From Amyloporia xantha (lineage: Eukaryota; Basidiomycota; Agaricomycetes; Polyporales; Adustoporiaceae): a stretch of DNA of 64,000 bases. The translations under genes and the position numbers were made by a program. The notes under the pieces are model-generated. The model was not told the DNA's origin. It saw only the letters and a list, made by a program, of their open reading frames with translations, and did not search any database. Shown piece by piece: positions 20,936 to 53,440 of this stretch (positions are counted from its first letter, which is position 1; each line of letters begins with the position of its first letter). The stretch lies in assembly GCA_036971615.1 (NCBI GenBank), contig JAYKKR010000051.1, positions 62,001 to 126,000 on the forward strand. The letters run 5' to 3'.

Positions 20936-21187
20936 TTAATGAACAAATTGACATAGAGTATTTTTTGTCTCACCCGAATAAAAATAGCTAATTTTGGAAA
21001 TCTCTTCCAATCCGTAATATCTTATAATTTTATCTGCAAATAATGTAGCAATAATAGTCATTAAACAATGAAGTATTAGAATAGAACCACTTAAGTGAAC
21101 TATAGCTCCTATTTGTTCAAGATTTAAGTCCTTTATGCTATTAGTTATAATATCTAAGGTATTATTACCATCTATAAAATTTTTCAT
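20936..21187 (-). CDS. ORF-D small membrane protein
   Basis: 83 residues. NLEQIGAIVHLSGS leads into a helix, then ADKIIRYYGLEEISKISYF, which resembles the helix-plus-KYPKL region of ORF-E, ORF-F and ORF-J but without the Arg-rich and final helical part. It may be a truncated paralogue. The leader carries GATTAAAAATAGAATA (near 21222-21237, minus), as in the cob leader, and TAGTTACAGTGG (near 21407-21418, minus). Function unknown. Confidence 0.6.
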   Translation of the reverse strand: MKNFIDGNNTLDIITNSIKDLNLEQIGAIVHLSGSILILHCLMTIIATLFADKIIRYYGLEEISKISYFYSGETKNTLCQFVH

Positions 21188-21610
21188 TGTTTTGTTTGTT
21201 GATTGTTGTTTTGTTAACGCCCTATTCTATTTTTAATCATAAAGGTGGACCCGTGCCTCATCGCTCCCATCCTGCCATCCCTGCCTCATCGTCGATGTTG
21301 CAGGGGTGAGGGATGAGTGCCCGATGGTCCACGGGTCCAAAGCAAAAGAATTATTATATTAAATTATGTAAGACTCTTTTTAATTAATAAGACGGTTGAA
21401 GCCGACTATACCACTGTAACTAAAAAGTCGTCTATATACTTCTTTTAAATAAGTGCAATGCGACCCCAAAATTTAAAAAATCTGGTTGTGTCCTCCGAAG
21501 CCTCCTTCTCATCCATCTCAACCGGCGCTCTCAACCTTCGCCATCCCTGCAGAGCAGGGGTGAGGTGCCGGAGAGGGATGCAAGGAGGGGGCGTATGGGG
21601 TGGAACCATT
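21188..21610. other. ORF-D leader and GC clusters
   Basis: Contains two GC-rich clusters (21248-21335 and 21487-21600) with CATCGTCGATG and CTGCAGAGCAG palindromes. Between them lies minus-strand leader sequence with TTAAAAGAAGTATA near 21434-21447 and TAGTTACAGTG, a pairing also seen upstream of cob and ORF-A. Confidence 0.6.
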
Positions 21611-22207
21611 TTAATTAAAAAATAGTTCAATTAATTTAGGTAATATTATATGTGCATACACAAAAATTTGCGGTAGAATACCTATAAAGATCCAAACAAA
21701 ACAAAGTTTTAAATAATAATTTTGTAATTTTCTTCGTATTTGTATATACTTAGCTAACTTAGGGTATTTATTTTCTAAATCGAATCGTTTAATTAAGTAT
21801 TCACCATATAACACTAAAATTATACTTACGACATAGCTTAGCACTAAACTATTTAATAATAAACCACTAAAAGCTAATAATTCCTCTTGTCTTAAGGAAT
21901 CTAAGAAAGTTTGTAAGTCAAAATCAAATGAAATGATACTACTTTTGTTTATAATATTTTTTATCTCTTCTGCATAATTAATTATATGATTATAAGATAT
22001 AGGCTGTGTCCATAGACAAGACATTGCCATACTATAAATACCAATGCCTGATCCAATTGACTGAATATAAAAAGCATTAAAAGCTAATGCTCCGGCATAA
22101 ATAAAAATTATAGAAAATATTCTAAGATATAATATGGATGAAATATTTTTATTGAATGAAGGTAGGGCAATTGCCACTATTAAAATTAAGATACTAAGAA
22201 AGATCAT
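21611..22207 (-). CDS. ORF-E, nad2-ORF chimera
   Basis: 198 residues. The first 59 match the nad2 N-terminus with one change (LRIF for LRIS); the upstream 5' leader is nad2's too. From MAMSCLWTQ on it is an unrelated membrane protein: FDFDLQTFLDSLRQEELLAF, two helices, and GEYLIKRFDLENKYPKLAKY then RRKLQNYYLKL. This part is a close paralogue of ORF-F and more distantly of ORF-J. The nad2 part could supply a leader and membrane-insertion segment. Function unknown. Confidence 0.8.
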   Translation of the reverse strand: MIFLSILILIVAIALPSFNKNISSILYLRIFSIIFIYAGALAFNAFYIQSIGSGIGIYSMAMSCLWTQPISYNHIINYAEEIKNIINKSSIISFDFDLQTFLDSLRQEELLAFSGLLLNSLVLSYVVSIILVLYGEYLIKRFDLENKYPKLAKYIQIRRKLQNYYLKLCFVWIFIGILPQIFVYAHIILPKLIELFFN

Positions 22208-22239
22208 TACTCAACAAAATTAATTCTTCTTTTACCTTT
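22031..22239 (-). repeat. Duplicated nad2 5' end
   Basis: About 209 bp copying the nad2 leader (about 31 bp) and its first 178 coding bases, with about two substitutions relative to nad2. It forms the start of ORF-E. Confidence 0.9.
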
Positions 22240-22441
22240 CGTGCCTCTCATCCCTCTCCATCCTGCATCCTGCGACCCTCATCTAGATGGTCCGAAGGAT
22301 GGGTTGAGGGACACGTTGCTAGAGAGGATGCAGGATGGGTAGGTCTTAAGGGGTAGTAACATTTATTAAACTATATTATTATTATGCCCACCCGACCCAG
22401 CTTGTAGCCATGGTCTCAACCATGGTTAAGTAAAATAATAA
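22208..22441. other. Spacer between ORF-F and ORF-E
   Basis: nad2-derived leader to 22239, then a GC cluster (22240-22345) and a second palindrome CAACCATGGTTG region near 22410-22425. No gene. Confidence 0.6.
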
Positions 22442-23123
22442 CTAAGTCGAGCATAGCACGTCTAATAGTTTAGGGTATAATATTAATATATCAATAATAA
22501 ACTGTGGTAATAAAGCAAAGAATATCCAAGCAAAGCAAAGTTTTAGGTAATAATTTTGTAATTTTCTTCGTATTTCTATAAATTTAGCAATTTTAGGGTA
22601 CTTATTCTCTAAATCAAATCGTTTAATTAAGTATTCACCATATAATACTAAAATTATACTTACGACATAACTTAATACTAAACTATTAAATAATAAACTA
22701 CCTAAAGCTAATAATTCCTCTTGGCTTAAAGAATCTAAAAGTTTGTAAGTCAAAATCAAATGAAATGATACTACTTTTGTTTATATCATGATCATCTAAT
22801 TTTGGAGAAGGATCTACGCTAACTAAAAAATTACCTTTAAATAAATTATAAAACCATTGTTTTATTGAATAAAATATGATAATATATAATATATACAAGA
22901 TAGATAATATAAAAACAGTCGTGCATAGCACGTCTATATTATTTAATTGTTTCCCTATACCACTAACCATAATAAATACACTTAATCCACCTATCATTTT
23001 GAATATTCTTACATAAATATTTTTATATCTCATTATTATATGATTAGGGAAGGTAGGTAAATCCCAACCAGATTTTATACCATAGAAAATTCTTTGGTTT
23101 ATTGTTTTATTATTTTTTTTCAT
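22442..23123 (-). CDS. ORF-F membrane protein (frameshifted)
   Basis: About 226 residues if read through a two-base deficit in a T run near 22739 (seen by comparison with ORF-E, which is intact there). Starts MKKNNKTINQRIFYG. It has about two N-terminal helices, a linker, then FDFDLQTF, LDSLSQEELLALGS, two helices and FDLENKYPKIAKF. GTGCATAGCAC and CGAGCATAGCACG palindromes lie inside. The leader is the rps3 module. Function unknown. Confidence 0.75.
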
Positions 23124-23285
23124 TTATTTTTTTTTTGTTTTATTTTAAAATTTATATTTATATAAATTTTATGATATATATTTTTTTACTTTGCATAACA
23201 TTCGAACTTAACAATACACGTGAATAATATACATACGTTTTATTTTACGTGTTAAATATCGTGCTCTCGACGATATTTTATTGTT
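23124..23285 (-). promoter_or_regulatory. ORF-F leader copied from rps3
   Basis: Matches the rps3 leader at 17392-17556, with a GTGCTCTCGACGATATT insertion that disturbs one arm of the inverted repeat. Confidence 0.75.
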
Positions 23286-24159
23286 ATTGTTTTTTTTTTA
23301 TGAAATTGTCATGTAGCGTTCCTCAACCATGGTTGCAGCATGCTGCGACCATGGAGGATCACAATTCAAAAGGTACGCCGTCATTTTGCGACCGGCAACC
23401 CATCCTTCGGCATCCGAAGGATGGGTTGAGGGTCGATTAAACTTCGACTGCTTATAGATTGACATCCACCTTCAAATGAAGATGGCTAGGCGTAAGCCGC
23501 TATGTATAACGCAACAGGCGAGCGTGGATGTCAATCCTTTGAAATTCATTTGATGTTATATCTATATTGTCATCGTTCCTTTTATTTTGCTGTTTCTACC
23601 CCGATGCTCCCAAAATGGTGTTTTTTCTAAAATAGGGGTTTTGATTGATGTGTGTTTTTCCTGTTGAGCTCAATTCCTAATAAGGGTCATAAAATCTATT
23701 CGCTTACCTGGATTGCTTATCCCTGCTTGCAGGCGTATGCATCCTGGTGAATGATGATAGAGAAGGTACGCCGTCATTTTGCGACCGGCCATCCTTCGGA
23801 TGGCACCATCTAGATGAGAGCAGGAGGGTCGATTAAACTTCGACTGCTTATAGACTCATCCCTGCAACATCCTCTCATCTCAACTCATCCTGTGTCCCAT
23901 CCTTCGGATGGGACACAGGATGAGATGTGACCCCAATGTTCAAGAAAATAGGGTAAATATTATATAATAAAAGAATAGCATCTCGGTCTCTTTTTTATGA
24001 GACCAGCCATTTAAGCAGCCAAAACGAGTTGCGCACAGCTCGCTTCGTAATAACTTTGGTGATATATAACATACATGCTCTGCAGTCATCCTCATCCTTC
24101 GGATGCCGAAGGATGGGATGCAGAAGGCAGCACGTATATTTACACATGTATACTAAATA
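23286..24159. other. Mosaic spacer with rnl fragments and cox3-type leader
   Basis: No gene. It holds two copies of an rnl segment (23369-23457 and 23763-23855) with GC clusters replacing the hairpin tip, a foldable block 23458-23535, a piece of the rnl 5' end (23533-23600), GC clusters, and the cox3-type leader 23967-24083 leading to ORF-G. Confidence 0.7.
23967..24083 (+). promoter_or_regulatory. ORF-G leader copied from cox3
   Basis: Matches on the same sense the upstream region of cox3 (33628-33741 minus), from TAAAAGAATAGCATC through the GCGCACAGCTCGC block to TTTGGTGATA. The hairpin GGTCTCTTTTTTATGAGACC is perfect here. Confidence 0.8.
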
Positions 24160-25143
24160 ATGATAATTATTCAACTTTTTAATGATACCATACTTACTTG
24201 TATGTTAATAATTTTAAATCCTATATTAATAATAACGTCTTCTTTGGTCTCCCAACCAATGTTTATTAAAACCTTTATAATAGCCTTTTTAATAGAAAGC
24301 GATTTGCTCGGGAAAAATATTAAAATGTACTGTAATTTTATAATAAATCATAAGTGGTTTCGCATCTTAGTTTATTTAATATTATTAGTTTCATTCATAT
24401 TAGGCCTACTGCATCCATCAATGCTTAACGATCATATTTTATATTTAAATGAACCTAACAATACTGACGTGCCAAACACGGATACTCCTGCTGCATCATC
24501 AACATCAACCACGGTTACAAATGATAGCACGCATAGTGCAACAAGTTCTACTACTGTTAATAATATTTTAAATATAAATGTTCCAAATTCTGCAAAGGAT
24601 ACCGCTTTAACTGCTATGGGCATGAAAATAGGTCTGGAAGCTGCTAAAAGCCTACCCGCAGCTGGTAAATTAGTGGCTGTTGGTGTAGGTGGTGGCGTAG
24701 CTCTTAGTTTATCTAAAATCTCCGATATTATTGATAAAGGTAAAGGTAAAGGTGGTGGTAAACCAGGTGAAGGTTCAAACTATGTTATGGAACCTGCAGC
24801 TGTAGAAGACTCAATCGTGCAAAGCACGTCCGATAATCAATTAATATTACAGCATTATCCCTTTAATCTCTTAAGTGAGCTATTTACAATAAATCAATTA
24901 GAGTTAGCATGTTTAATTTTAATTTTAAATTGTTTCATATCAACCTTAATTAGACATTCAGGATTTAATTATAGTAAATACATTCCTAATAACAAATTTA
25001 AACCTAAAATTGAGTATCTAATTAATAGATACATCGATATATGGTATAAATCTAATATTTTTGTATTTAGTGTTTCATGGGTCTGCTTATTTGTAATAAA
25101 TTTTACAATTAAATATTCACTTCATCTAATATTATCGTCATAA
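24160..25143 (+). CDS. ORF-G membrane protein
   Basis: Intact, 327 residues. Three N-terminal helices, a Ser/Thr-rich linker (about residues 115-140), an Ala/Gly-rich hydrophobic block AAGKLVAVGVGGGVALSLSK, a Lys/Gly-rich stretch KGKGKGGGKPGEG, then two more helices with KYIPNNKFKPKIEYLINRYIDIW between them. A GTGCAAAGCAC palindrome sits in frame (IVQST). Two helices around a basic linker at the C-terminus recall the other orphan ORFs. Function unknown. Confidence 0.8.
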   Translation: MIIIQLFNDTILTCMLIILNPILIITSSLVSQPMFIKTFIIAFLIESDLLGKNIKMYCNFIINHKWFRILVYLILLVSFILGLLHPSMLNDHILYLNEPNNTDVPNTDTPAASSTSTTVTNDSTHSATSSTTVNNILNINVPNSAKDTALTAMGMKIGLEAAKSLPAAGKLVAVGVGGGVALSLSKISDIIDKGKGKGGGKPGEGSNYVMEPAAVEDSIVQSTSDNQLILQHYPFNLLSELFTINQLELACLILILNCFISTLIRHSGFNYSKYIPNNKFKPKIEYLINRYIDIWYKSNIFVFSVSWVCLFVINFTIKYSLHLILSS

Positions 25144-25665
25144 GATGCCGCATCACGGCTCTCATGCATGGAGCATCTAGATGCTCCATGCATAGCACAC
25201 TTCTCTCAACCCTCATCCGGCTCGTTGTGAACATGGGGGGGCAGCCTATTATTATTATTATTATTCGCGGTCATCCAATGATTGTTGGCCTATAAACATA
25301 TCCCCGTATTATTTACCCAGTGTATGCGAAAATCATGTTTCTTGGATTTTAGCTATCTGCGACCATGGTCGAGAGGGTGTCTATTTTTGGCCTAAGCTGA
25401 ATTCTCTTTGGTTAAGTAAAATCTACCCCGCTATCTACTACTTTCCTCATCCCTCCCTCTCTCGACCGGCAACCATGGTTGAGGGTCGCCCCTGCGCGCT
25501 GCGAGCCTCATCCCTCATCTAGATGGTCCGAAGGATGGGATGCCGGTCGAGGGTTGCCGAGGGCCGGAAGCGAGCCCCCTCTGCCGAGCTCAGCACGGAG
25601 TTGATGCACGGGTAAATGTAAGGGGTTATTACGTCGACTCCGCCGAAACTTCGTCGACGCAACCT
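25144..25665. other. GC-cluster-rich spacer
   Basis: No gene. A perfect 30-bp palindrome at 25164-25193 centred on CTAGATG, an ATT repeat near 25248-25265, and GC clusters 25380-25600 with CGACCATGGTCG and CATCTAGATG cores. Confidence 0.6.
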
Positions 25666-25751
25666 CGGGCACTGTGAGATTTGAACTCACGACTTTTTTG
25701 AAGTACTCGTTTTCAAGACGAGCGCCATAAACCAGACTCGACCAAATACCC
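25666..25751 (-). tRNA. trnS: tRNA-Ser (TGA)
   Basis: Acceptor GGGTATT/AGTGCCC, anticodon stem CTCGT/ACGAG with loop CTTGAAA (TGA), long variable arm. Last of the minus-strand tRNA cluster. Confidence 0.92.
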
Positions 25752-25903
25752 TCTTGCATCCCTCTCTCATCCCCTCTCTAGCCCCTCATGCGAAGCATGG
25801 CCTCATCTAGATGGTGCCATCCGAAGGATGGCAGGGTGAGAGGGATGGTGGATGGGGGGACGGCTTGAGGTTGAGGATGAGAGAGATGAGGATGACACTC
25901 TAC

Positions 25904-25977
25904 TAAGACCGAAGGGAATTGAACCCTTATAAGATCCATTATGAGCGAATTGCATTAACCTATTATGCTACAGTCTT
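25904..25977 (-). tRNA. trnM: tRNA-Met (CAT)
   Basis: Acceptor AAGACTG/CGGTCTT, loop CTCATAA. A GC-cluster spacer of about 150 bp separates it from trnS(TGA). Confidence 0.88.
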
Positions 25978-26000
25978 AAACTATACTAAAAAGATACGTA

Positions 26001-26084
26001 TGAGCAGTAAAGGAATCGAACCTTTTACAGTTATACACCAATTCTTTTACAGAGAACCACCATTACCAATCGGATCACCTGCCC
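26001..26084 (-). tRNA. trnY: tRNA-Tyr (GTA)
   Basis: Loop CTGTAAA (GTA) on stem GTTCT/AGAAT, with the long variable arm usual for fungal mitochondrial tRNA-Tyr. Confidence 0.88.
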
Positions 26085-26101
26085 TTTTTAATTTTTAGTG
26101 T

Positions 26102-26173
26102 TGAAAGCACCTGGACTTGAACCAGGACTATCTTCTTAAAAGGAAGATACTCAACCACTCGAGTTCTGCTTCC
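26102..26173 (-). tRNA. trnK: tRNA-Lys (TTT)
   Basis: Acceptor GGAAGCA/TGCTTTC, loop CTTTTAA, T-loop TTCAAGT. Confidence 0.92.
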
Positions 26174-26185
26174 TTTTGTTTATAT

Positions 26186-26259
26186 CTGAGTTGACCAGAC
26201 TCGAACTGATATTAGCCACTTCCAAAAAATGGTGTTCTTCCAAATTAAACTACAACTCA
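26186..26259 (-). tRNA. trnQ: tRNA-Gln (TTG)
   Basis: Acceptor TGAGTTG/CAACTCA fully paired, loop TTTTGGA (TTG). Confidence 0.9.
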
Positions 26260-26265
26260 TATACT

Positions 26266-26337
26266 TGCCGAAAACTGGGATTGAACCAATATTTAAGTCT
26301 TACAAGGAATTCGTTTTACCATTTAAACTATTTCGGC
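26266..26337 (-). tRNA. trnT: tRNA-Thr (TGT)
   Basis: Acceptor GCCGAAA/TTTCGGC, loop CTTGTAA (TGT). One mismatch in the anticodon stem. Followed by a GCCGGCTTCGCCGGC palindrome. Confidence 0.88.
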
Positions 26338-26367
26338 TATTATAGCCGGCTTCGCCGGCCACAAGCT

Positions 26368-26439
26368 TACCCCGGGAGAGAATTGAACTCACATCTCTAA
26401 GTCTTCAAGTTAGCGCTTTGACCACTAAGCAACCGAGGT
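26368..26439 (-). tRNA. trnF: tRNA-Phe (GAA)
   Basis: Acceptor ACCTCGG/CCGGGGT, loop TTGAAGA (GAA) on CTAAC/CTTAG with one C-C mismatch next to the loop. Confidence 0.88.
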
Positions 26440-26476
26440 TTCTCATATATTATAATAACTCTTTTAAATATCGTGT

Positions 26477-26547
26477 TGGAGATAGATAGATTCGAACTAT
26501 CATATTTGTAGTGCAAATACAACTGATTACCATTATCAGATATCCCC
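26477..26547 (-). tRNA. trnA: tRNA-Ala (TGC)
   Basis: Acceptor GGGGATA/TATCTCC, stem TTGTA/TACAA, loop TTTGCAC (TGC). First of the eight-tRNA minus-strand cluster, headed by a TAAAAGAGT box near 26561-26571. Confidence 0.88.
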
Positions 26548-26638
26548 TATCATTCCTTCAAACTCTTTTATTCTATAAGGGGCCATCCGGCATCCTGCGA
26601 CCCTCAACCATGGTTGCCTGATGAGGGATGAGAGGATG

Positions 26639-28085: not shown

Positions 28086-28708
28086 TTTAAATTAACGTAG
28101 ACGGGTTGTTGTTTTATTAAATACGGCGAAGCCGAATATTGATGATAGGATTACGATTGTAATTCAAATTTTTATATTAAAAAATTGAAAAAAATTAATC
28201 AGATTGGTAGATCGGTCATATGACCAGAGAGGCTTGACTGTATATTCTACAAAATAATTTAGCTTAGTAAACGATTCTTTTATAGCGTTCGGAGGACGGT
28301 TTTTTTATTTAAAATAAAGCGTGCGAAGCACGTAAGTAAATATAAAGAAGAGTCGACCGGCAACCGGGAACCCTCGCGCGCCGGTGCATCCCTCACTCAA
28401 TCAATGAGTGCCGGGGCATCCGGCAACCCATCCCATCCTTCGGATGCCGAAGGATGGGATGAGAGGGATGAGAGAGGGTTGAGGGTGCCGGAGAGAGAGC
28501 GAGAGGCTAAGGATAAGCCTTTTATCTAATAAAGGAGTAAGGTCGTGTAAGCCCATCGATCCTTTAAATCCTTTTTTTTAGATATTTTAATTCCCCTTTG
28601 CGACCGGCACTCCCTCGACCCTCCTGCTCTCATCTAAATAATGCCATGCTTCGCATGAGGGTCGAGATAGGGTTGAGAGGGATGCGAGGGGGTGATTGGT
28701 ATTATTCT
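28086..28708. other. nad4 leader and GC-cluster spacer
   Basis: 28089-28205 is the nad4 5' leader, also found at 29731-29846. A minus-strand TAAAAGAATCG box lies near 28271-28281. From 28320 to 28700 there are GC clusters (CACTCAATCAATGAGTG, CATCCTTCGGATGCCGAAGGATG forms). No gene. Confidence 0.65.
28089..28205 (-). promoter_or_regulatory. nad4 5' leader
   Basis: 117 bp immediately before the nad4 start, essentially identical to 29731-29846 before ORF-H. Includes the GGCGAAGCC palindrome and an A/T-rich tract. Confidence 0.75.
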
Positions 28709-29730
28709 TTATTTCTTAGGGAAGTATGTATGCAAATCAATTGGTAACTCTTCTAATGGTAGAGGATGGGTGATAAGATAATGTAAACCTACAAAAAGCT
28801 CTATTAGGCCAAACACTATTATTAATGGTAATAGAAAAAGACTAATTTTACTTAGGGTAATTTGGTAGTTAATAAAAAACGCAATAAATTTATTATTAGT
28901 ATTAAATTTGTTTATAATGAATTCTTTATTATGTAGCATTATATTTATAAGCGTATATAAACTAAATAAAATGATTAAACTAACTACTATTAATAACATA
29001 AGTGAGTAGATAAATATTTGTTGACCTATTAAATCATCCAAATATCCGTGTACGTGTACTGGTTTAAAGAATTGAATAAAGAAATTGAAAATACCATCTA
29101 AAGATAAGTCTTGAAAGTAGTAACCGTCGCCTGTTCTAGTAGCCTCATCGCTAAGTCTGTCAAATACTGGGTTTAATCGATTATCATGTATAACAGCAGA
29201 TACAATAGCTGGCCATGAACCAGTTATTTTGTACTCCATCATTGACGTGCTCCGCACGAATCTGTTAAAGCCATTTGGATTTACAGCATGAAACCATACA
29301 GCAGAAGGTCGTGCTTTGCACGCTAACGAAGTTAAAGCAGCTATTGCTTTAATTTTGGGTGTTCCAGGTACTAATCTATATACACCTATAGCACCTCCTA
29401 TAATACCCCTCCTGCAACCATGGTTGAGAAGGAGGGAGGAGTACCAGAAGGCCACCATCTAACAGGGTCCTGATTATTATTACTATCATTGACATATAAC
29501 CATTCAGGTTTAATATTAGAATGAAGAAATAATAGCTGGATTAAACTAAGAATAAACATGATACCAGTAAAAATTAAGAGGATTAATATTAATATTTCAA
29601 TTATAGTACTAGTCTGACATAGGTTTTTAGCTTTTAACCCTAAAAGACCTAATTTAGAAGTATACATAATTACTAATGATAATACTGAGGTATATAATAA
29701 GAGATTTAATATCATTAAGTTGATTTCCAT
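28709..29730 (-). CDS. ORF-H membrane protein (frameshifted)
   Basis: About 340 residues. The N-terminal part has two helices and DPVRWWPSGTP. After a GC palindrome (GCAACCATGGTTG, near 29415-29427), a C/G run at 29406-29409 appears one base short. Past it the frame continues GIIGGAIGVYRLVPGTPKIK, AVWFHAVNPNGFNRFV and KITGSWP, then three C-terminal helices. GTGCTCCGCACG and GTGCTTTGCACG palindromes are in frame. I do not recognise a domain. The leader is nad4's. Confidence 0.75.
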
Positions 29731-29846
29731 AAATTAACGTAGACGGGTTGTTGTTTTATTAAATACGGCGAAGCCGAATATTGGTGATAGGATTACGATT
29801 GTAATTCAAATTTTTATATTAAAAAATTGAAAAAAATTAATCAGAT
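29731..29846 (-). promoter_or_regulatory. ORF-H leader copied from nad4
   Basis: Starts on the base after the ORF-H ATG (minus strand) and matches 28089-28205 with about one substitution. Confidence 0.85.
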
Positions 29847-30148
29847 ATCTCCATCTCTCGACCCTCTCGACCATGGTCGAGAGGGTTGAGGGCAAGATAT
29901 CTACAAAAATAGTTTTTATTGGTAAACTATTCATTCTTTTATACGTAGGGGGTTATTATATCATCGTCATCGTCTTTAACATCCTTCCCATCTTAAAAAA
30001 AGATGTAGATAGGCTGTGTCCTGCATCCCATCCTTCGGACCATCTAGATGAGGGTCGCCGGGGCACTCATCCCTCATCCTGCGACCATGGTCGAGGGATG
30101 CAGGATGGGAGAGAGGGACAAGAGAGATGTAAGATGTAAAAGTTTGTC
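29847..30148. other. Spacer upstream of ORF-H, downstream of nad5
   Basis: GC clusters at 29850-29895 (CGACCATGGTCG) and 30015-30125. Between them AT-rich sequence with a minus-strand TAAAAGAATG box near 29935-29943. No gene. Confidence 0.6.
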
Positions 30149-32397: not shown

Positions 32398-32734
32398 AGT
32401 TATGTATTTGTACGTCCTTTGGGAACCGGTAATAAATGTTGGCTCCGTGCCCCCCCCCTCTCTCTCCCTGCCATCCTTAGGATGGGCTAGAGGGATGGTC
32501 CATCTAGATGAGGCAGGGGGGGAGGGCCGGAGAGAGATAGAGAAGAAAAGGGGGTTATGTATAACTCCGCCTGCATCCCTCTCAACCTGCGACCCATCCG
32601 AAGGATGCCGGTCGAGGTTGGCCCATCATGCGAAGCATGGCCTCATCGTCGATGGTGCAGGACCGACCTGCATCCTGCATCCCTCGACCATGGTCGCAGG
32701 ATGAGGGATGAGGCTCGAGAGAGGCGAGGACGGA
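32398..32734. other. GC-cluster spacer between nad4L and cox3
   Basis: Nearly all GC-cluster sequence: CATCTAGATG, CATGCGAAGCATG, CATCGTCGATG and CGACCATGGTCG cores in series. Open frames here are products of the repeats, not genes. Confidence 0.65.
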
Positions 32735-33543: not shown

Positions 33544-33562
33544 TTTTTGTATTCGTATTTTT

Positions 33563-33741
33563 CGTGCTGTGCGCTCATCCGCATCCTTTGCATCCCTCAT
33601 CTAGATGAGGGATGCGCTGCACGTGAGAGCATGGGCACGTTATGTATCACCAAAGTTATTACGAAGCGAGCTGTGCGCAACTCGTTTTGGCTGCTTAAAT
33701 GGTGGCTCTCATAAAAAAGAGACCGTGATGCTATTCTTTTA
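33563..33741 (-). promoter_or_regulatory. cox3 5' leader (shared module)
   Basis: About 179 bp nearly repeated at 34562-34744 before ORF-I; its distal 110 bp also precede ORF-G. From the promoter end: TAAAAGAATAGCATC, a variable-tip hairpin, AAGCAGCCAAAACGAG, GCGCACAGCTCGC, TTTGGTGATA, then a GC cluster with CCCTCATCTAGATGAGGG. Confidence 0.8.
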
Positions 33742-34191
33742 GTCTTATTCTGTTATTACGTTGGCTCTCCTCCTTATCTAATCTTTTTTTCCTTATTAAT
33801 ACACTTCTCTCATCCGTGCTTCGCACGCCTCTCTAGCAACGTGGTTCCCATCCCATCCTTCGGATGCCGAAGGATGGGATGCAGACTGGTTGAGGCCGGC
33901 CGGAGAGCATCCCTCATCCAAAGGATGGCTTCGCACGAGCATGAGCACGTTGCTAGAGAGGGATGCAGTAGGGGGTGGACGATCGGATTATGACGATACG
34001 ACTTCGTCGATAGTGAATACTTAATTGTAAAGTTTATTACAAATAAACAGAGCCATGAAACAGTAAATACAAAAAGATAATTGATTATCGGACGTGCTTT
34101 GCACGATTGAGTCTTCTACACTACTCGACCCTCAACCCTCATCTAGATGGTCCGAAGGATGGGTTGAGGGTCGAGGGAGGAGGAGCACGAA
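33742..34191. other. Spacer between cox3 leader and ORF-I
   Basis: GC clusters 33811-33975 and 34120-34190 around unique AT-rich sequence. No gene seen. Confidence 0.6.
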
Positions 34192-34554
34192 TTAACTAAA
34201 ATGAATTATAATTTTTATACTAGCCTTTAACATATATCCTATGCTACTAAATAGAAATATAAGTTCTAATATAATAAAACTTACTCTAGTTCTATTATAA
34301 AATTTAACTAATTTAGTCATATACGCGCGAAGCACGCTATTAGATATTTTATCAATAATTTTATTATTATTTACTATATATAATGATAGTAGATATATGG
34401 AGATATTTATTACACTAAATAAAATAATACAATTAAAAATTAAACAACCTATAGCCAAAAAAACTATAGGCGGCAGAGCCGTATCATTTATATTTACATT
34501 TAGTCCAATAAAATTTAAAAAGTCATTAATATTATTTTGCATGAGAAATTTCAT
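34192..34554 (-). CDS. ORF-I membrane protein
   Basis: 120 residues from the ATG at 34554 (MKFLMQNNINDF); a longer start would begin inside the GC cluster. Two helices, then LVKFYNRTRVSFIILELIFL forming a third after a basic linker, as in the other orphan ORFs. A GCGCGAAGCACGC palindrome is in frame (VLRAY). The leader is a copy of cox3's. Function unknown. Confidence 0.72.
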   Translation of the reverse strand: MKFLMQNNINDFLNFIGLNVNINDTALPPIVFLAIGCLIFNCIILFSVINISIYLLSLYIVNNNKIIDKISNSVLRAYMTKLVKFYNRTRVSFIILELIFLFSSIGYMLKASIKIIIHFS

Positions 34555-34561
34555 TATTTTC

Positions 34562-34744
34562 CGTGCTGTGCGCTCATCCGCATCCTTTGCATCCCTCATC
34601 TAGATGAGGGATGCGCTGCAGGTGAGAGCATGGGCACGTTATGTATCACCAAAGTTATTACGAAGCGAGCTGTGCGCAACTCGTTTTGGCTGCTTAAATG
34701 GTTGGTCATGGGCTCAATGAGCAGACCGTGATGCTATTCTTTTA
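34562..34744 (-). promoter_or_regulatory. ORF-I leader copied from cox3
   Basis: Nearly identical to 33563-33741 apart from the hairpin tip, where GGTCATGGGCTCAATGAGCAGACC replaces the cox3 version while keeping outer pairing, and a few indels. Confidence 0.82.
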
Positions 34745-34924: not shown

Positions 34925-37900
34925 TCCTTAACATCAAGTCTATTTAATAAATTAGTAATGATAAACTAAATACCTCACAGTAATTTCATTTTCATCCTAT
35001 CTAGAAATGTTCTATTTCTTACAAAATTAGATTCTAGAAGAATCTAATGATAGTATCTAGGATAGCTTCCTGCTTCATATTCATTCAGCGCTTATCTATC
35101 ATGTTTGTGGCTACCCAACTATGCTTACGCGTGCCCATCCTTTGGATGATCGCTCATCCCCTGCACCATCGACGATGAGAGCAGGAGGGATGCCGGGCAC
35201 GCTTCAACAATTGGTACACTAGAGAAACACAGCCTATTGATCCTTTCGTACTAGAAGGTCTGCCCCTTTTTACTATTTTTCCCTCCAGAAGATAGGGACC
35301 ATACTGACTCACGTCGTATTAAACCCAACTCGCGTAACCTTTTAATCGGCGAACAGCCGAACCCTTCCAAGCTTCTTCCCCCGGAGGATAGGTTGAGTCG
35401 ACATCGCAAATATTAGTATATCAAATATACCCCCTCTCTCATCCTCGACCGGCAACCCATCCTTCGGATGGGTCGCAGGATGGCTGAGGGCTTAATCTTT
35501 CGATTAAGATTAGACTATATCTTCATCCTGCATAAGAATACATTTATGTAGCTCCAGGATGTTGGCGTGTAGTCGTTGAGGGGTTACAAATTTTACAGTT
35601 GCTATAACCTAAATAGGTAACTTCCCTGCTGATTGCCCAATCTTTAAGATTTTTACAATTTATAAAAATAAATGAGTACTTAAAGCTTAAGGGTGTTCCA
35701 GCATATAGCCAATTTCTATATAAATATTTCTATTTATAGTCCCCGATGTAATTTTGCAATATTATTATATATTCAAGGTGCCAAACAGCCGGGACAATGT
35801 GTACTCTCACCAGCTATCAGCCTGTTATCCCTAGCGTAACTTTTATCGATTGATCCCCGTCTATTCCATAATATAGCGAAGGGTCACTATGCCCTACTTA
35901 CGTATCTGTGCGACTTCTAGGTCTTACAGTTAGGCATGCTTTCCGCCATTACGCCGATTACTACCTTTCTCACTGGTAGATTGTTCCCCATACAATAATC
36001 TAGCTCTACCTTTTTTAAAAATTTATTATATAAATAAAAATACGAGGTATTTCATCTATAAACTTTAAGTTAGTATATCTTTCTCTCTCATCCCTCATCC
36101 CTCATCCAGGGGATGCGGGATGCGGGATGGAGGAAGGATATTTATTAATAAAAAATCTTTGGATGTACTTTGCTACTTTATCAAAGACGACCGCCCCAGT
36201 CAAACTGCCAATTAGTCAACTCTCCCTCTAATTTTACAAATTATAAGGTAAACATTGACCCAACCTTAGTTAGGAGGTATTCCATCTTTCGTCTATCGAC
36301 TTCCCTAATCACTATTAACCGAGGTTGTTGTAGATCAACATGATAACTAACTACAGTAAAGCTGCATAGGGTCTTCCCGTCCACCTGGAGGCAACCCGCA
36401 TCTGCACGGGTAATTCAATTTCACTGAGCAAGTTGTAGAGACAGTGAGACCATCGTTACACTATTGATACCAGACCACATTTAATGGCCAACTGATTTTG
36501 CTACCTTTGGATCCTCATAGTTAAGACCGCTATTAACCAGACTTTCGATTAGTAACTTTCGTCATTACCTCTCTTATATTAATGGCATTGGGCAAATTTC
36601 ATTCAGAATACTATTATCTTAATCATTGCTCTGAATTGTGTTTTTAGTAAACAGTCGGGGCCTCCGATTTTGTGCCACCACCTTAATAAATAAATTATTC
36701 CTAATTTAAATTTCAGGCGGTTCCTCTTGTCGTCAAACTTATGAGGAGAACTTGCCGAGTTCCTTAACAACTTTTAGCTCTACGCCTTAGTATTCTCTAC
36801 CTACGAACCTGTGTCGGTTTAGGGTACGGTAGCGTTAACTTATTTTTCCTGGTCCATTAATTTACATATGGACTTTCAGTTAGCTACTCATCAGCCAAAA
36901 CTTTGGTTTTGGTCCTTAGAGGCCGCATTAACATAAGGCGGTTTAACCTTTCCTTATAACCCTTTCGTATTCGGCGAGAAGTATTATAACTTCTTTTTAC
37001 GTTACTCATGTCAGCATTATCTCTTCAGTTACCTAAAAACAATGAAACACTGTTTTATTAAAAGTTATACTGAATGTTCTACTACCTGTATTCGGAATAC
37101 GCGGCTTCGCCGGTATTCAGAATAAACACGATATCGGTTGATTATTTAGACCCGTTAAATTTTAGGTACAACATTCTAAGGGCTGCTACGTTGTTACATT
37201 ACGGTCATTAAAAGATAGCTACTTCCAAGCTCACTTTACAACTGCATTCAATATGTTATTTCCTTAATTTCACTTAATAATCATTTGGGACCTTGTATTC
37301 GTGTTCTCGGCTGTTTCCGTCTTGACTACTCAACTTGCTCATGAGCAGTCTGAATATCTATCATCAATTTATGTCATTTCGAGTTTCTCTTCCATTGGTA
37401 AGATTTTCGAGGTCCCCTCAACCTAAACATTATATTAGCTCGAAGGCTAATCTTTGTTGGGAATTCAGTGCTGTACCACCATAAATTTTGAATAGATGTC
37501 ATACTTACATATGTTTCGTAGAAAACCAGCTAGCACTAGGTCAGATTGGCATTTCACCGCTTCCCAAAACTCTTCGGAGAATTATGCAACATTCACCCGT
37601 TCGATCCATTATAATCTGGTCTTGGGAAGATCACCTAGCTTCGGGTCTAATAGAAGTAACTTATCCACCACTATTCCTAGAAAATAATTAACTTTATTGA
37701 TAGTTTTCTTGTCTCATCCCTCATCCCTCATCCAGGGGATGCGGGATGCAGGATGCAGGACACAAAACTTAAACAATAAAGGATTATCCTATTTTTACGT
37801 AGAAACAAAAAAATACACTCTCATCCCTCATCCCTCATCCAGGGGATGCGGGATGCAGGATGCAGGCTAGTTAGTCCAGTCGCTTTCACTAAGGCTTTTA

Positions 37901-38442
37901 ACCTTGCTACTCCTATTAACTTGCTGACCCATTATGCAAAAGGTACGCCGTCATTTATATTTATATAAATTTCGACTGCTTATAGAGTTACTAATTCAAG
38001 ACTATTTCACTATGTCTATTAATACATACTTTTCAACTTTTCCTTTACAGTACTTTTCACTATCGCTAAATTTATAATACTTAGCCTTAGAGGATGGTTC
38101 CCCTATATTCCGACAAGTTTTCTCTCATCGTACTTTTTACGTTATAATCTTTATACGTCTACAGGACTTCTTAACCTTCTCTGGTTATATTTTCAACGTA
38201 TAAAGTTATATAGGCTATTCCGATTTCACTCACCATTACTTTCGGAGTCTCGGTTGATTTCCTTTCCTTTCCCTACTAAAATGATTTACTTCGGGAAGTT
38301 TAAATAATAAAGGTTTCCCTTAGGATCGCCACAATTTGTGTGTTTGTGTGGCTTTTGGTTTTTTACCTCCTTTTGTATAAATTTGCTAGTTATCCTTAAT
38401 AACCCCTTTGAAATACATTTGATGTTAGATCTATATTGTCAT
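34925..38442 (-). rRNA. rnl: Large subunit ribosomal RNA
   Basis: Minus-strand LSU rRNA. On that strand the sarcin-ricin/3' region reads TTCTAGTACGAAAGGATC (near 35240) and the peptidyl-transferase segment is near 35800-35900 (complement of CCAAACAGCCGGGACAAT and CAGCCTGTTATCCCTAGCG). Ends are approximate; I place the 5' end near a TAAAAGAATCG box at 38443-38455. GC clusters interrupt variable regions at about 35129-35200, 35433-35570, 36082-36136, 37712-37760 and 37818-37866. No intron ORF seen. Confidence 0.93.
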
Positions 38443-38609
38443 CGATTCTTTTATTTATCTCATCCGTGCCCCATCCTGCATCCTGCGCTCCTCTCTCATC
38501 CTGCGACCATGGTCGAGGGATGCAAACCTGCGTCCCATCCTTCGGACCATCTAGATGAGGGATGCCGGTCGAGGGATGACAAAAATAAAAGAGTTATATA
38601 ATTATTGCA
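38443..38609. other. Divergent rnl/rns promoter region
   Basis: Between the two rRNAs: a minus-strand TAAAAGAATCG box (38443-38455) facing rnl, a GC cluster (38460-38580), and a plus-strand TAAAAGAGTTATATAA (38586-38601) facing rns. Confidence 0.6.
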
Positions 38610-42207: not shown

Positions 42208-42858
42208 CGAGGGTTAAGATATCTAAATCTGAGATTATACTATAGTATAATTTTGTAAGGTTAAAAGGGTCACTTATAATATATCTATAGCAAAAATAAT
42301 TTTGTGGAGATAAAAAAATAAAGAAAATTTATACGTAATAGCGTCTCTCGCATCCCTCTAGCAGGATGACTGCAGAGCAGGTCATCATATCAAGCCCACC
42401 CCCCATCCAAAGGATGCCCCGGCAACCGGCAACCATGGTGCATCCATGGATGAGAGGGTTGAGGGTGCATCCTGCATCCCTCGACCATGGTCGCAGGATG
42501 AGGGATGAGAGGGATGGGATGGCATGTTGATATTTAAGATGTAAAGACGATAAAATATCTAACACTTAAGTATGTTTCGTATTATATTACGTTGTAAGGC
42601 TATACTCCTATATGATCTTATTAATATTTTATAGTTAATTCAGACGTATTCGTTTTTATACTTCTACTAAATTTTTCCTATAGAAGTCTAACTCACTCCC
42701 CTTATCCCCCTGCTACATCGACGATGAGGCAGGGATGGCCGGGGGACAACCCTCTCTCCCTGCCATCCTTCGGATGGCACCATCTAGATGAGGGATGCAG
42801 GATGGTCTCGGATGAGGATGCATGCCCATGGACACGGAGGAGAGGATGGTGTCGCTCG
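42208..42858. other. Spacer between trnH and trnM
   Basis: AT-rich unique stretches (42211-42342 and 42541-42700) with GC clusters 42345-42525 and 42705-42850. No protein gene seen; the AT-rich blocks could be RNA but show nothing I recognise. Confidence 0.5.
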
Positions 42859-43645: not shown

Positions 43646-43650
43646 ACGAC

Positions 43651-45471: not shown

Positions 45472-45640
45472 TTTAGCGCAACCCCCTACCCTACATCCCT
45501 CTCAACCCTCATCCCTCATCTAGATGGTCCGAAGGATGGGATGAGAGGGTCGAGAGAGGGATGGGAGGGATGAGGCGAGCTCTACTCGTTTTAAAAGAAG
45601 TATAGTATAAAATACGAAGGCAGCCGTAGGCGCTTCACAA

Positions 45641-45711
45641 AAGCCTATGATTTAAGGGTAGAATAATTTCTTGATAAGGAATCTGTAGAAGTTCAAATCT
45701 TCTTGGGCTTA
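45641..45711 (+). tRNA. trnI: tRNA-Ile (GAT)
   Basis: Acceptor AAGCCTA/TGGGCTT, loop TTGATAA (GAT). Preceded by TTTAAAAGAAGTATA (near 45596-45610). Confidence 0.92.
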
Positions 45712-46125
45712 TACTAGTATACGTAAATTAATAGTTACAGTGTTAGACTTAGCGTGCTTCGCTCATCCTACTTCCCTTTGTGTCGATGCCTCTCAACCTG
45801 CGACCGGCAACCGGCATCCCTTGTCCATGGACAAGGGATGCCGGTTGAGAGAGGGTTGCCCGGCAACCGGCATCCGGCAACCATGGTGCATCCATGGATG
45901 AGAGGGTTGAGGCTTGAGGCTAGAGGAAGGGCCGGTGGCCGATGGCGCACAGCATGAAGACGTAGACGAAAAATAAAAAAAATAAATAAACCTAATTAAA
46001 TATAGTGCCCCATCCTTCATCCTCTAGCAGATGGTGATGCAGATGGATCACGGCACGAACTAATTAATGATTAAAAATAGAATAATGACGAAAAAATAAA
46101 ATAAAAATAAATATAATTAAATAAA
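45712..46125. promoter_or_regulatory. cob leader region
   Basis: Begins ATAGTTACAGTGTTAG (near 45731), then a GC cluster (45755-45955). 45986-46088 is an AT-rich/GC block repeated at 52249-52350 before ORF-A, ending in ATGATTAAAAATAGAATAAT. Confidence 0.7.
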
Positions 46126-47674: not shown

Positions 47675-47748
47675 GGTGTCATGGCAGAGTGGTTATTGCG
47701 AAGTACTGTTAATACTTTTTTTCAGAGGTTCAATTCCTCTTGACACCT
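47675..47748 (+). tRNA. trnN: tRNA-Asn (GTT)
   Basis: Acceptor GGTGTCA/TGACACC, stem AAGTA/TACTT, loop CTGTTAA (GTT). Confidence 0.93.
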
Positions 47749-47847
47749 TAACTTATCTCATATCTCTCTAGCTCCCCCCTCGTCATCATCCCATGGATGA
47801 GAGGATGAGAGGCGTGCGAAGCACGGATGAGAGAGAGGCAGAGTAAA

Positions 47848-47932
47848 ACGAACATGTTGAAATTTGGTAAACAATCTCCTCTTAAGCAGGAGTGGAAGTA
47901 ATTCCTTAAGAGTTCGAGTCTCTTTGTTCGTA
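47848..47932 (+). tRNA. trnL: tRNA-Leu (TAA)
   Basis: Acceptor ACGAACA/TGTTCGT, loop CTTAAGC (TAA), long variable arm. Confidence 0.93.
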
Positions 47933-47963
47933 TTCGTGTTTCAACGATAGTGTACCTCCCTAA

Positions 47964-48036
47964 TGTGATATGGTGTAAAGGTTTCGCACAACAGCCTCAT
48001 GATCTGTTAGATTGGGTTCGATTCCTAATGTCGCAA
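47964..48036 (+). tRNA. trnM: tRNA-Met (CAT)
   Basis: Loop CTCATGA (CAT), acceptor TGTGATA/TGTCGCA with wobbles, T-loop TTCGATT. Third CAT tRNA. Confidence 0.87.
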
Positions 48037-48119
48037 TCTTATTATATAAATGAAATGTAATGTAATGTAGCTAATCAGGCGAGGTCCCGCGTCATTATCG
48101 CTACGCTTAATCAAGCCGT

Positions 48120-48167
48120 GCCGCCGTTACCATGCCTTCCATCCGAAGGATGGGAAGGCATGGTAAC
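48120..48167. repeat. Long GC hairpin
   Basis: Arms CCGTTACCATGCCTTCCATC and GATGGGAAGGCATGGTAACG pair over about 22 bp with one bulge around a GAA loop. The tip is the common CCATCCGAAGGATGG core, so a standard module has been extended by a unique stem. Confidence 0.8.
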
Positions 48168-48267
48168 GGCCGGTTGCCAGAGAGCTGATAAGCAGGGGAG
48201 AAAGTCAGAGGTATAATTTAAAAAAAAAAATAAAGGAATTTAAATTTAATTAAAGTTTTATTTTTAA

Positions 48268-50352
<2,085 letters not shown>

Positions 50353-50999
50353 TTTTTATTTAGAAGTTTATAACCCCCTACGGCTCGAGTAATTGACCAC
50401 CATCCTCTAGCCTCATCCCATCCTTCGGATGCCGAAGGATGGGATGCCGTGCATCACTCCTGCTCTCATCTAGATGGTGCCATCCGAAGGATGGCCGGGG
50501 CAACCATGGTTGAGAGAGAGAGAGGGCTCCTGATATCGACTCAACAAACATCAACTGATATAAAAGAATCAGCTATAAAATAGAACGGAGAGCTTCAGTG
50601 CGGCTGGCTTCTTTGATCTTTACATCTTTCGCTCTTACTCATCTTTGATCTAGCTTAGAGACGGGACCACCGCGTAAGCTGGATACCATCATCACGTGCA
50701 GTCAACAGAATACCAAATAGGGCTTGTTGCAAAACAGGCAAGACCATACCATATTTTTAATTTGATGACGCTTGATTGCATCAGGCTCTCACGTGCCTCA
50801 ACCATGGTTGCCAGGGTGGAGAGATAGAGGGAAGGGCGTGGCTAGCTGTTATAACTTAACAATAAAATATCTATTTAACATGTAAAATAAAACGTATGTA
50901 TATTATTCACGTGTATTGTTAAGTTCGGATGTTATGCAAAGTAAAATATAGACCATAAAATTTAAATAAATAAAATAAATTTTACTAAAATCAATCACA
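50353..50999. promoter_or_regulatory. ORF-J upstream region with rps3-type leader
   Basis: GC clusters 50395-50530 and 50790-50840; TATAAAAGAATCAGC (50562-50576), as upstream of rps3; a unique block 50585-50790 with possible stems; and 50844-50999, the copy of the rps3 leader that reaches the ORF-J ATG. Confidence 0.72.
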
Positions 51000-51551
51000 A
51001 TGAAAGCATTGTTAACGAAAATTTTTTCTCGGGTAGGTATAAAAAAAGGATTTAATGTACCTTTATTGCCTACAAAAATAACAAAAATTATCTATTTATT
51101 ATTTATTATTATTGCTATTAGTTTACTTATTTATTTTTATACTACTGGGTTTTATTCAAATATTATAATTCATTTTTTAAAAATGTTAGCTTCTTTCCTT
51201 AAAAAATTTGTTGGAAATTATAACAATGGGAGTAAAAAATTAGTTTCTGACGTGGTTAGCACGCTTGACTCTTTTTATGCTTATCTTGACAGTTTAACAC
51301 TTTTGGAAGAATTAGCTCTCTTCCAGGTTTTGTTTTTCTTATTAGTATTAATTATTGGTTTAAATATACTTATTGCCTTATTTTGTAATGAAATAATTAA
51401 TTACTTTGAGCTAGAAAATAAATATCCTAAATTACATAGGGTGCTTAAATTACGAGTTAAATTTCAAAGATACTATTTAGTATGGAATATATTTCAATTA
51501 TTTATAATATGTATTGTAGGAATAGGTCTAAATCTTTTATTTATAATTTAA
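51000..51551 (+). CDS. ORF-J membrane protein
   Basis: 183 residues, intact. One N-terminal helix, an amphipathic linker, then YLDSLTLLEELALFQ, a helix, NEIINYFELENKYPKLHRVL, RVKFQRYYL and a last helix. Shares this C-terminal layout with ORF-E and ORF-F. A GTGGTTAGCAC palindrome is in frame near 51254. Leader from rps3. Function unknown. Confidence 0.78.
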   Translation: MKALLTKIFSRVGIKKGFNVPLLPTKITKIIYLLFIIIAISLLIYFYTTGFYSNIIIHFLKMLASFLKKFVGNYNNGSKKLVSDVVSTLDSFYAYLDSLTLLEELALFQVLFFLLVLIIGLNILIALFCNEIINYFELENKYPKLHRVLKLRVKFQRYYLVWNIFQLFIICIVGIGLNLLFII

Positions 51552-52391
51552 GCGTGCCCACCTGCTCATCCGGCACTCGGCAACCGGCAACCTTGACCGG
51601 CACCCCATCCTTCGGATGGGATGCCGTGCATCCTGCATCCATTGATGAGGGATGAGAGAGAGGCTTGTCCCATGGTCGCCAGAACTGTTTCAATATCGAA
51701 AGTAATAATCCTGCTGCGCAGGTTAGGAACTATCCTTCGGAAGGACAAGCACTTTAGAAATTTGGTTTCTACTTCTTTTCTCGACCCTCAACCCATCCTT
51801 CGGATGCCGAAGGATGGGGTGCCGGTCGCAAGTTAAAACTATATCCCCGTTCCGAGCCTCATCCTGCTAGAGGATGCCGGTCGCCGGATGGCATGCGATT
51901 TATGAATGAAAATAGTATCAAAAGGATGAATACTCTTATGAAAATTTTAATCTAAAAGAAGTATATATGCATAAATTATTAGTTACAGTGTCAATAATAG
52001 ATCTCCCTCAAGCCTCTCTCTCAACCGGCGACCATGGGGCAACCGGCAACCGGCAACCGTGGTGCATCCATGGATGAGAGGGTTGAGGCTTGAGGGTGCA
52101 TCCTGCATCCCTCGACCATGGTCGCAGGATGAGGGATGAGAGGGAGGCTTGCCCCAGCATCCCTCCGCCGAACACGTTCGGCGGAGGGATGCTGGATTAG
52201 GGGTGCCGGGAGCCAGTGAAATCGCATAACGAAAATATAAAGAAATAAAATAAACCTAATTAAATATAGTGCCCCATCCTTCATCCTCTAGCAGATGGTG
52301 ATGCAGATGGATCACGGCACGAACCAATTAATGATTAAAAATAGAATAATAATTTAAAACAAACACCTCCAAAGGAGGTTTTAAATTAAAA
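51552..52391. promoter_or_regulatory. ORF-A upstream region with cob-type leader
   Basis: GC clusters (51553-51665, 51777-51895, 52005-52210) including the 40-nt hairpin 52155-52194. CTAAAAGAAGTATATA near 51953 and TTAGTTACAGTGTC (51977-51990) as upstream of cob; 52249-52350 duplicates the cob leader block 45986-46088. No gene. Confidence 0.7.
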
Positions 52392-53440
52392 ATGAATTTT
52401 AGAAAAAGAACCATACAAGTATTAAAAAAAGCTTTATTAACTCCAACATTACCACAACATATCACAGATTTTAAAAATAAACTCGTAATTAGAATACTTA
52501 GAGTATTGGGTGGTTTAAGTATGTTATTAGTATTATCAAAAAAATTAGATATCTTATTCTCAGATCCAGCTTTGCACGCTATAGCTACAATATTTTGTAT
52601 AATATTTATTATATTGTTTATGATATATAATATATACATAGCTTATCATATAATATTACATACTATTCGAGTATTGAAAAGCGATAAATTAGATATTAGA
52701 AACTCCCCTTACTCCGAAGAAGGGGGAAGTGTTTGGGCTAGAGTAATATTATGTAGCAAAGGAATCTGTCAAGCGACCGGCCCTCTCTCTCATCCGGCAA
52801 CCCGCATCCTGCATCCCTCGACCATGGTCGCAGGATGAGGGATGAGGGTTGAGGCTAGATGAGGCTAGAGGGTCGAGGGTGTATACGGAGCTATGGGTTT
52901 AGGTGGAGCACTTGCAATAGATCATATAATAATGTTTAATGGTTTAGATCCCGACGCGTTACCTATATTAGCAAAAGTTATGACTGGGACAAATGAACAG
53001 GCGGCGAAGGAAATGAGAAAAGAAAGACTTAAATTAACCAGAAATAATATAGCATCCGAAGGATGGTATGAAGAAGAGTTGAATGCTTATGATAAATTAT
53101 TAAATGATAAAATAATTAGTACAGATGAACATAACCTGCAAAGCAGGGATACTCCTCCAAAGGAGGTTCAGTAGCTAATTCTACAGAATCTGAAAATAAA
53201 AATTCTAATCTTATTAATAGTTCAAATAATTTCTTTTTATTACTAAATAATAATAATATAAATAAAAAAATTCCTTATTGGCTAAAAATATTATTTAGAT
53301 TACTCATCCGAAGGATGGGTCGCAGGTTGAGGGACACGTTGCTAGAGAGGATGAGAGGCACGAGTAGTATTTTAGAATTTTTTAATAATTTAATTTATTT
53401 AAAACTATTTTGTTATTTCTCATGCTTTATCAATTATTAA
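52392..53440 (+). CDS. ORF-A membrane protein, interrupted (copy 3)
   Basis: First frame to about 52780: MNFRKRTIQVLKKALL, two helices, then KSDKLDIRNSPYSEEGGSVW. A GC cluster (52781-52880) breaks it. The middle frame has GAMGLGGALAIDHIIMFNGL and an in-frame palindrome reading IASEGWYEE. After CCTCCAAAGGAGG a third frame gives an Asn-rich stretch and a C-terminal helix, reading through another GC cluster without a stop. It is either a decayed gene or one with two sequencing slips. The leader is cob's. Function unknown. Confidence 0.6.

Follow-up and report, generated by a model that had tools for sequence, protein, structure and literature searches.

Copies of core-gene 5′ leaders before orphan reading frames in the mitochondrial genome of Amyloporia xantha

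We examined a 64,000-nucleotide stretch of Amyloporia xantha DNA (the window; bases 62001-126000 of contig JAYKKR010000051.1, in a genome totalling 46.8 Mb) in which orphan open reading frames (ORFs) stand behind copies of sequence that otherwise precedes core mitochondrial genes. The contig, here C47 (180.8 kb), is made up of several copies of a single 44,774-base mitochondrial circle, present in both orientations and with fold-backs, one unit of which occupies window 7553-52326. The circle encodes the core genes nad1-6, nad4L, cob, cox1-3, atp6, atp9, rps3, and both ribosomal RNAs (rRNAs)—a gene content that probably marks a fungus of the mushroom-forming type—and, beyond these, ten orphan ORFs (A, B, C, E, F, G, H, I, J, and X21) together with a plasmid-type DNA polymerase (dpo). 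The concatemeric form of C47 is probably an assembly artefact, or may reflect linear or branched forms. Its fold-backs lie at differing places along the contig, and within the window the repetition concerns 1-7634, 8603-16250, and 52326-64000. Homopolymer indels distinguish the assembled copies of nad4, cox3, F, H, and dpo, and a frame break seen in one copy alone is therefore not to be relied on.

Leader copies and the TAAAAGA box

An earlier note on this DNA had named seven pairs of core gene and orphan ORF with shared upstream sequence, and all seven were found in place: nad2/E, nad4/H, rps3/F, rps3/J, cox3/G, cox3/I, and cob/A. Donors, recipients, and copied blocks lie as follows (window coordinates).

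13037..13240, + strand: nad2 donor (TAAAAGA box, 27-nt leader, first 59 codons)
3215-3012 (- strand) and 57818-58021 (+ strand): second and third copies of the nad2 locus
21611..22207, - strand: ORF E (198 aa), nad2 codons 1-59 in frame with an orphan tail of two predicted transmembrane (TM) segments
22031..22235, - strand: nad2 block copied into E (205 nt, 99.0%)
16417..17391, - strand: rps3 (VAR1 family), donor
17392..17671, - strand: rps3 leader and box, donor
22440..23123, - strand: ORF F together with its tail, the reading frame interrupted in the window
23124..23262, - strand: rps3 leader copy before F
51000..51551, + strand: ORF J (183 aa)
50819..50997, + strand: rps3 leader copy before J (query 1-182 of 182, 91%)
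33544..33741, - strand: cox3 box and leader, donor
34192..34554, - strand: ORF I (120 aa), in tandem upstream of cox3
34555..34744, - strand: cox3 leader copy before I
24160..25143, + strand: ORF G (327 aa), four hydrophobic segments
23967..24159, + strand: cox3 leader copy before G (103 nt at 95%, the rest diverged)
33988-34191: G-like ORF remnants between I and the cox3 leader (37 nt at 100%, 91 columns at 86%)
28086..28282, - strand: nad4 box and leader, donor
28709..29730, - strand: ORF H with H2, in tandem upstream of nad4
29731..29941, - strand: nad4 leader copy before H (206-column block, 83% overall)
45592..46125, + strand: cob upstream region, donor (box, tRNA-Ile, leader)
52392..53174, + strand: ORF A followed by its second part (A2), the two separated by a GC-rich hairpin element and a stop
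51953..52391, + strand: cob-type box and leader copy before A, lacking tRNA-Ile

Across the compared leader stretches, identity ranged from 93.4 to 99.1% (aligned columns of chosen stretches, gaps excluded). The closest agreement was between nad4 and H (114/115 in the last part of the block) and between nad2 and E (202/204, comprising 27 nt of leader and 177 nt of codons), followed by cox3/I (176/182), cox3/G (98/103, in the 5′ part), rps3/J (132/139), rps3/F (130/137), and cob/A (128/137 within the first 140 nt). At E, the edge of the nad2 block is a true copy boundary rather than the product of decay, because identity is 99% inside the block and no similarity continues past it.

The copies begin at the box or a few bases earlier, much as the earlier note had described: the donor's box is common to the leaders of E, G, H, I, J, and A, and the F leader lacks the rps3 box. 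The accompanying claim that the copied blocks keep their position relative to the start codon was supported, in that the places are similar. The blocks end 0-13 nt from the ATG in nad2/E, nad4/H, rps3/J, rps3/F, and cox3/I, and about 40 nt from it in both cob and A; the high-identity part of the G leader stops about 90 nt upstream.

That leader similarity exceeds chance was borne out by alignment of the 450-nt upstream regions of 27 genes (351 pairs, repeats masked, 1000 shuffles). Ten pairs scored above the best shuffle (31)—nad4/H, rps3/J, cob/A, cox3/I, cox3/G, G/I, F/J, rps3/F, C/X21, and nad5/nad4L—the last of which is trivial because its two windows overlap, leaving nine non-trivial pairs that beat all shuffles. 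nad5/nad4L was also the sole pair of two core genes above the null. The nad2/E pair scored 28, under the threshold, because its leader is just 27 nt long and the block runs on into the ORF. An earlier run under a harsher base-composition mask (25 upstream regions, 300 pairs, 600 shuffles, null 24.5) likewise gave ten pairs above its null, seven of them leader pairs and the other three weak (dpo/B 26, atp6/I 26, nad5/H 25); the mask hid cox3/I, and neither cox3/I nor G/I was among that run's pairs.

Specificity for leaders was also evident in a catalogue of non-hairpin duplications across the circle (E<1e-5, with 5,412 of 44,774 bases masked as repeats). Apart from two self-palindromes and one tRNA pair, all of its 20 rows (17) touch orphan ORFs or their remnants: nine are core-to-orphan duplications, two are leader matches between orphans, and six are matches between paralogous or remnant ORFs. 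Eight of the nine core-to-orphan duplications are 5′ leaders or promoter regions placed in sense orientation upstream of an orphan, the ninth being a nad2 piece within B. In a genome-wide search, matches for G and J and for the rps3 and cox3 leaders were confined to C47. GC-rich palindromic elements (for example, 42454-42514, 15131-15211, and 52085-52145), which form two families in the window (15 and 9 copies), occupy many spacers and some leaders.

The box itself is enriched and placed near genes. The circle holds 27 instances of TAAAAGAR, whereas 10.4 are expected and none of 100 shuffles had more than 19; of the 27, 23 lie in sense orientation no more than 450 nt from a gene start, a placement found for 12.5% of random sites (binomial P 1.7e-17) and for 7/27 boxes in a strand-flipped control. 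Fifteen of the 23 precede core, rRNA, or tRNA genes, and eight precede orphans. Their distances include those to the large subunit (LSU) rRNA (29 nt), the small subunit (SSU) rRNA (63 nt), and seven tRNA genes (8-49 nt), with an eighth tRNA gene at 137 nt. The box is probably a promoter or the main 5′ processing site. Genes with a box directly upstream served as donors in 5 of 7 cases, as compared to 1 of 9 (cob) for the others (Fisher P 0.035).

Beyond the seven named pairs, we recovered weaker or partial copies, in the following places.

20936..21187, - strand: ORF X21 (83 aa in the window; open for 119 codons in two further assembled copies)
21188..21447, - strand: decayed cob-type leader before X21 (box, TTAGTTACAGTG, TGATTAAAAATAGAATA)
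10080..10601, - strand: ORF C (173 aa), related to B
10602..10889, - strand: leader of C (box and TTAGTTACAGTG element)
38405..38456, - strand: LSU rRNA box and 5′ end, donor
23536..23587, - strand: copy of the LSU rRNA box and 5′ end (52 nt, 92%), ~410-460 nt upstream of F
17875..20546, + strand: dpo, plasmid-type family B DNA polymerase (PF03175), its reading frame interrupted in the window
17830..17856, + strand: nad4L pre-start copy, 18 nt before the polymerase ATG
32412..32438, - strand: pre-start sequence of nad4L, which may be donor or recipient, 14 nt from its ATG
8824..9579, - strand: ORF B (251 aa)
9372-9413: nad2 piece inside B (42 nt, codons 45-59)
9581-9654, - strand: tRNA-like sequence (35.8 bits), 2 nt before ORF B

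The 17-mer TGATTAAAAATAGAATA (at most one mismatch) was found only before cob, A, and X21 (three matches, 0 in 100 shuffles). The TTAGTTACAGTG element precedes cob, A, X21, and C and is also present in the spacer upstream of nad1; its core, TAGTTACAGTG, has seven sites in the redundant window against 0.04 expected and five in the circle, before cob, A, X21, and C and in the tRNA-Arg/nad1 spacer. F appears to join an rRNA promoter copy to an rps3 leader, since the LSU copy sits upstream of its rps3 leader. The nad4L and dpo pre-start sequences agree at 26 of 27 nt, with 22 in one exact run (E 5e-5, outside the catalogue's cut-off), and the 22-mer, allowing three mismatches, occurs three times in the window (the third in a second assembled dpo copy) and in none of 100 shuffles. 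The nad2 pieces in B and E share the same end point, and B may be freed through tRNA processing, given the tRNA-like sequence 2 nt upstream. Several weaker leader matches at E<0.01 were set aside: nad4 to 10014-10046 (0.001), C to 28341-28303 (0.002), atp9 to 51890-51843 in antisense (4e-5), and cox1 to 42944-42905 (0.004) and to 52388-52326 (0.004).

Kinship and constraint of the orphan proteins

By their hydropathy profiles, most orphans look like multi-pass membrane proteins: four segments were counted in E, B, G, and the readable copy of F, three in C, J, and I, two in A, 2+2 in H/H2, one in X21, and none in A2. F reads as a single ORF in one assembled copy (C47:129220-129911), with 225 codons inside that stretch. 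H was found in six assembled copies, three of which hold H and H2 as a single 340-aa ORF, while the other three, like the window, show two frames; the idea that a hairpin splits ORF H was dropped on this account.

E, F, J, and X21 are homologous, X21 being a distant relative of J and E. A matches F (8.5e-7), B matches C (2.3e-5), I and H2 have weak matches to the orphan family, and G matches its own remnants alone. Leader type does not follow this kinship, so leaders seem to be swapped as cassettes; specifically, the closest relatives, E and F, bear different leaders, and G and I have the cox3 leader in common with no mutual protein match at E<1. E consists of the first two predicted TM helices of nad2 followed by the two-TM orphan tail, and the nad2 piece may replace the family's usual first helix pair, because the readable F copy has four hydrophobic segments.

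The tails of E and F are under purifying selection (dS 0.61, dN 0.19, omega 0.32 over 107 codons), with changes distributed 25/10/37 over the three codon positions (chi-square P 0.0005). The nad2 and E blocks differ at a dS of 0.02, and the leaders of F and J are 93.8% alike at a coding dS of ~1.05. This pattern could be produced either by renewal of leaders through gene conversion or recapture or by strong constraint on them, and on both alternatives the leaders would therefore matter.

At curated cut-offs, no Pfam family was assigned to A, B, C, E, F, G, H, H2, I, or J, and no NCBIfam family to A, B, C, the E tail, F, the F tail, G, H2, I, or J. A structural model of J (four sequences, mean pLDDT 67.5, all helical) had no PDB match at E<=0.001; a model of G made from G alone (pLDDT 40.9) was not used. 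Scans of viral contigs with a partial DNA polymerase, COX1, and the J/E/F/X21 alignment recovered no orphan relative, and on L024, a fungal-looking mitochondrial contig whose COX1 pieces are 57-80% identical, nine loci yielded no orphan match at E<=0.01. An ATP8 model gave no match and was uninformative.

Origin and role of the leader copies

The reading we favour, with a probability of roughly 60%, is that the orphans are expressed by way of captured core-gene cassettes that are swapped independently of the ORFs. A cassette would comprise the putative promoter or processing box and the core 5′ leader, with the first 59 codons as well in the case of nad2, and its recipients would be mostly multi-pass membrane proteins akin to plasmid-associated non-conserved ORFs. 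Capture would have happened repeatedly, most likely through DNA recombination, followed by exchange of cassettes between ORFs. Copied leaders would recruit the translation factors of their donors, and selection for expression would retain working copies, consistent with leaders that stay 93-99% donor-like as the ORFs diverge. The nad4L pre-start copy favours this reading too, since it means that the polymerase also bears core pre-start sequence. The earlier note had gone further, suggesting that the ORFs hijack signals the host cannot silence without losing respiration, as a selfish or addictive element might, or else are co-regulated with the donor genes. Borrowing of expression signals is supported by the sense orientation of the copied promoter and leader regions, their direction from core gene to orphan, and their similar distance to the ATG; hijacking or addiction and co-regulation fit the sequence equally.

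Several observations weigh against cassette capture for expression. ORF B is without a core leader. Counting nad4L among the donors (2/9) removes the significance of the box association (~0.07 one-sided, worked by hand). Omega is 0.75 for E/J and 0.52 for F/J, values that are rough at a dS of 0.9-1.05. A contains an in-frame stop beside its hairpin element, so some orphans may be decaying. Finally, predicted RNA folds of the rps3, J, F, nad4, and cox3 leaders are ordinary (z 0.1 to -1.2), with the exception of cob (z -2.5, 4/200 shuffles as good); these scores lend little support to conserved RNA structure as the cause of leader conservation.

The strongest competitor, which we consider unlikely though worth weighing, is that the copies are recombination by-products of the kind known from plant mitochondria—random, microhomology-driven copying, from which functionless chimeric ORFs arise and decay. 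The stop in A, the G-like remnants between I and cox3, and the internal nad2 piece in B, which plays no leader role, are all what such copying would leave behind. Against it, eight of nine core-derived duplications are sense leaders or promoter regions before orphans, whereas by rough estimate the 60 nt 5′ of core starts make up ~1% of strand positions and those 5′ of orphan starts 0.7%; moreover, the E and F tails are constrained.

Less probable still is that the ORFs are insertion elements that land behind a core leader and ahead of its gene, and that duplicate or bring along a leader such that the host gene is still expressed, with I-cox3 and H-nad4 as recent cases. An insertion in Allomyces atp6 is reportedly comparable. 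I and H do immediately precede cox3 and nad4 in tandem, each behind a leader of its own, and the genome holds a plasmid-type DNA polymerase, but E, F, J, A, and G lie apart from their donors, and Pfam scans of ten orphan sequences found no integrase or endonuclease.

RNA-mediated copying, in which partial cDNAs of core mRNAs are integrated upstream of ORFs, seems improbable. Although the copies start near the probable transcript 5′ end and A lacks the tRNA that separates box and leader in cob, the whole box is copied, and a transcript starting in or after the box would lack it; further, no group II intron was detected at the Rfam cut-off and no reverse-transcriptase domain among 30 Pfam-scanned proteins (part of the ORFs). 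An assembly artefact behind the leader copies is very improbable: despite the concatemeric contig, its fold-backs and homopolymer indels, and the single assembled copy behind the J leader and most of the A leader, the copies carry substitutions relative to their donors and sit in distinct contexts, E is identical in four assembled copies and G in five (one partial), and the leaders of F, G, and I are present in four, four, and five.

Relation to known systems

The phenomenon is already known, as Heterobasidion shows leader copies from three core donors. In the available passages on five species of that genus (PMC10234125), cox2 and intergenic ORFs are preceded by 5′ ends copied from nad2, cox3, atp8, and two ORFs; the authors name the core copies PA_nad2, PA_cox3, and PA_atp8, suggest that they drive ORF expression without invoking selfishness, and propose an origin from partial cDNAs through group II intron reverse transcriptases. 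Both systems place core 5′ ends (nad2, cox3) before intergenic ORFs, nearly all of which have TM regions in Heterobasidion, and both contain GC palindromes and a plasmid DNA polymerase (PMC10234125). As far as those passages describe, A. xantha differs in its additional donors (nad4, rps3, cob, LSU rRNA, and, for a short stretch, nad4L), in the share of orphans affected (seven of ten clearly, two weakly), and in copies that run from a promoter-like box towards the ATG; Heterobasidion has two partial ORFs among its donors and a single copy that precedes cox2. A. xantha is thus a richer case of the Heterobasidion phenomenon; in the literature searched, we found no report of the cassette pattern with the A. 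xantha donors.

Non-conserved ORFs of Agaricomycetes are described in the passages available as free-standing, intergenic, endowed with TM segments, and co-occurring with plasmid genes (PMC4201751, PMC10512249). The A. xantha orphans resemble them in being intergenic, mostly transmembrane, without family match, and accompanied by a plasmid-type DNA polymerase; leader capture is not the subject of those passages. Promoter/5′ UTR (untranslated region) variation of one such gene, nc-ORF5, is associated with growth rate (PMC10512249, as excerpted), which is the nearest evidence that orphan leaders matter. Truncated atp9 copies in Armillaria mitogenomes are not described as leaders in the part of PMC6506933 at hand.

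Chimeric ORFs of plant cytoplasmic male sterility (CMS), according to the portion of PMC3789559 available, are likewise membrane ORFs fused to parts of core genes or placed under core promoters. The corresponding traits here are the 59 nad2 codons in E and the core leaders before A, E, F, G, H, I, and J; the fungal case differs in having several paralogs and mostly leader copies only, and the likeness lies in gene build, with no membership claimed. A fungal counterpart of CMS, in which selfish membrane genes and a plasmid-type polymerase re-dress themselves in essential-gene cassettes so that nuclear silencing would cost respiration, and in which leader swapping would be an escape from nuclear restorers, is a speculative extension that we hold to be doubtful. 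Cassette capture offers a testable account of how fungal mitogenomes could express their free-standing orphan ORFs, lets the copied leaders serve as natural experiments in which promoters and translation signals of mitochondria can be mapped, and raises a possible fungal parallel to CMS genes.

Of the traits of linear mitochondrial plasmids (invertrons), a family B DNA polymerase is present on C47, where all six PF03175 matches of the genome lie; the six RNA_pol matches are all on another contig (C3) and not on C47. The start of ORF C (10498-10601) encodes a basic stretch with RFFHSS, which we take to resemble a nuclear-type mitochondrial presequence, odd in a mitochondrial gene. Group I introns lie in the LSU rRNA gene (35491-35759) and in cox1 (48565-49003).

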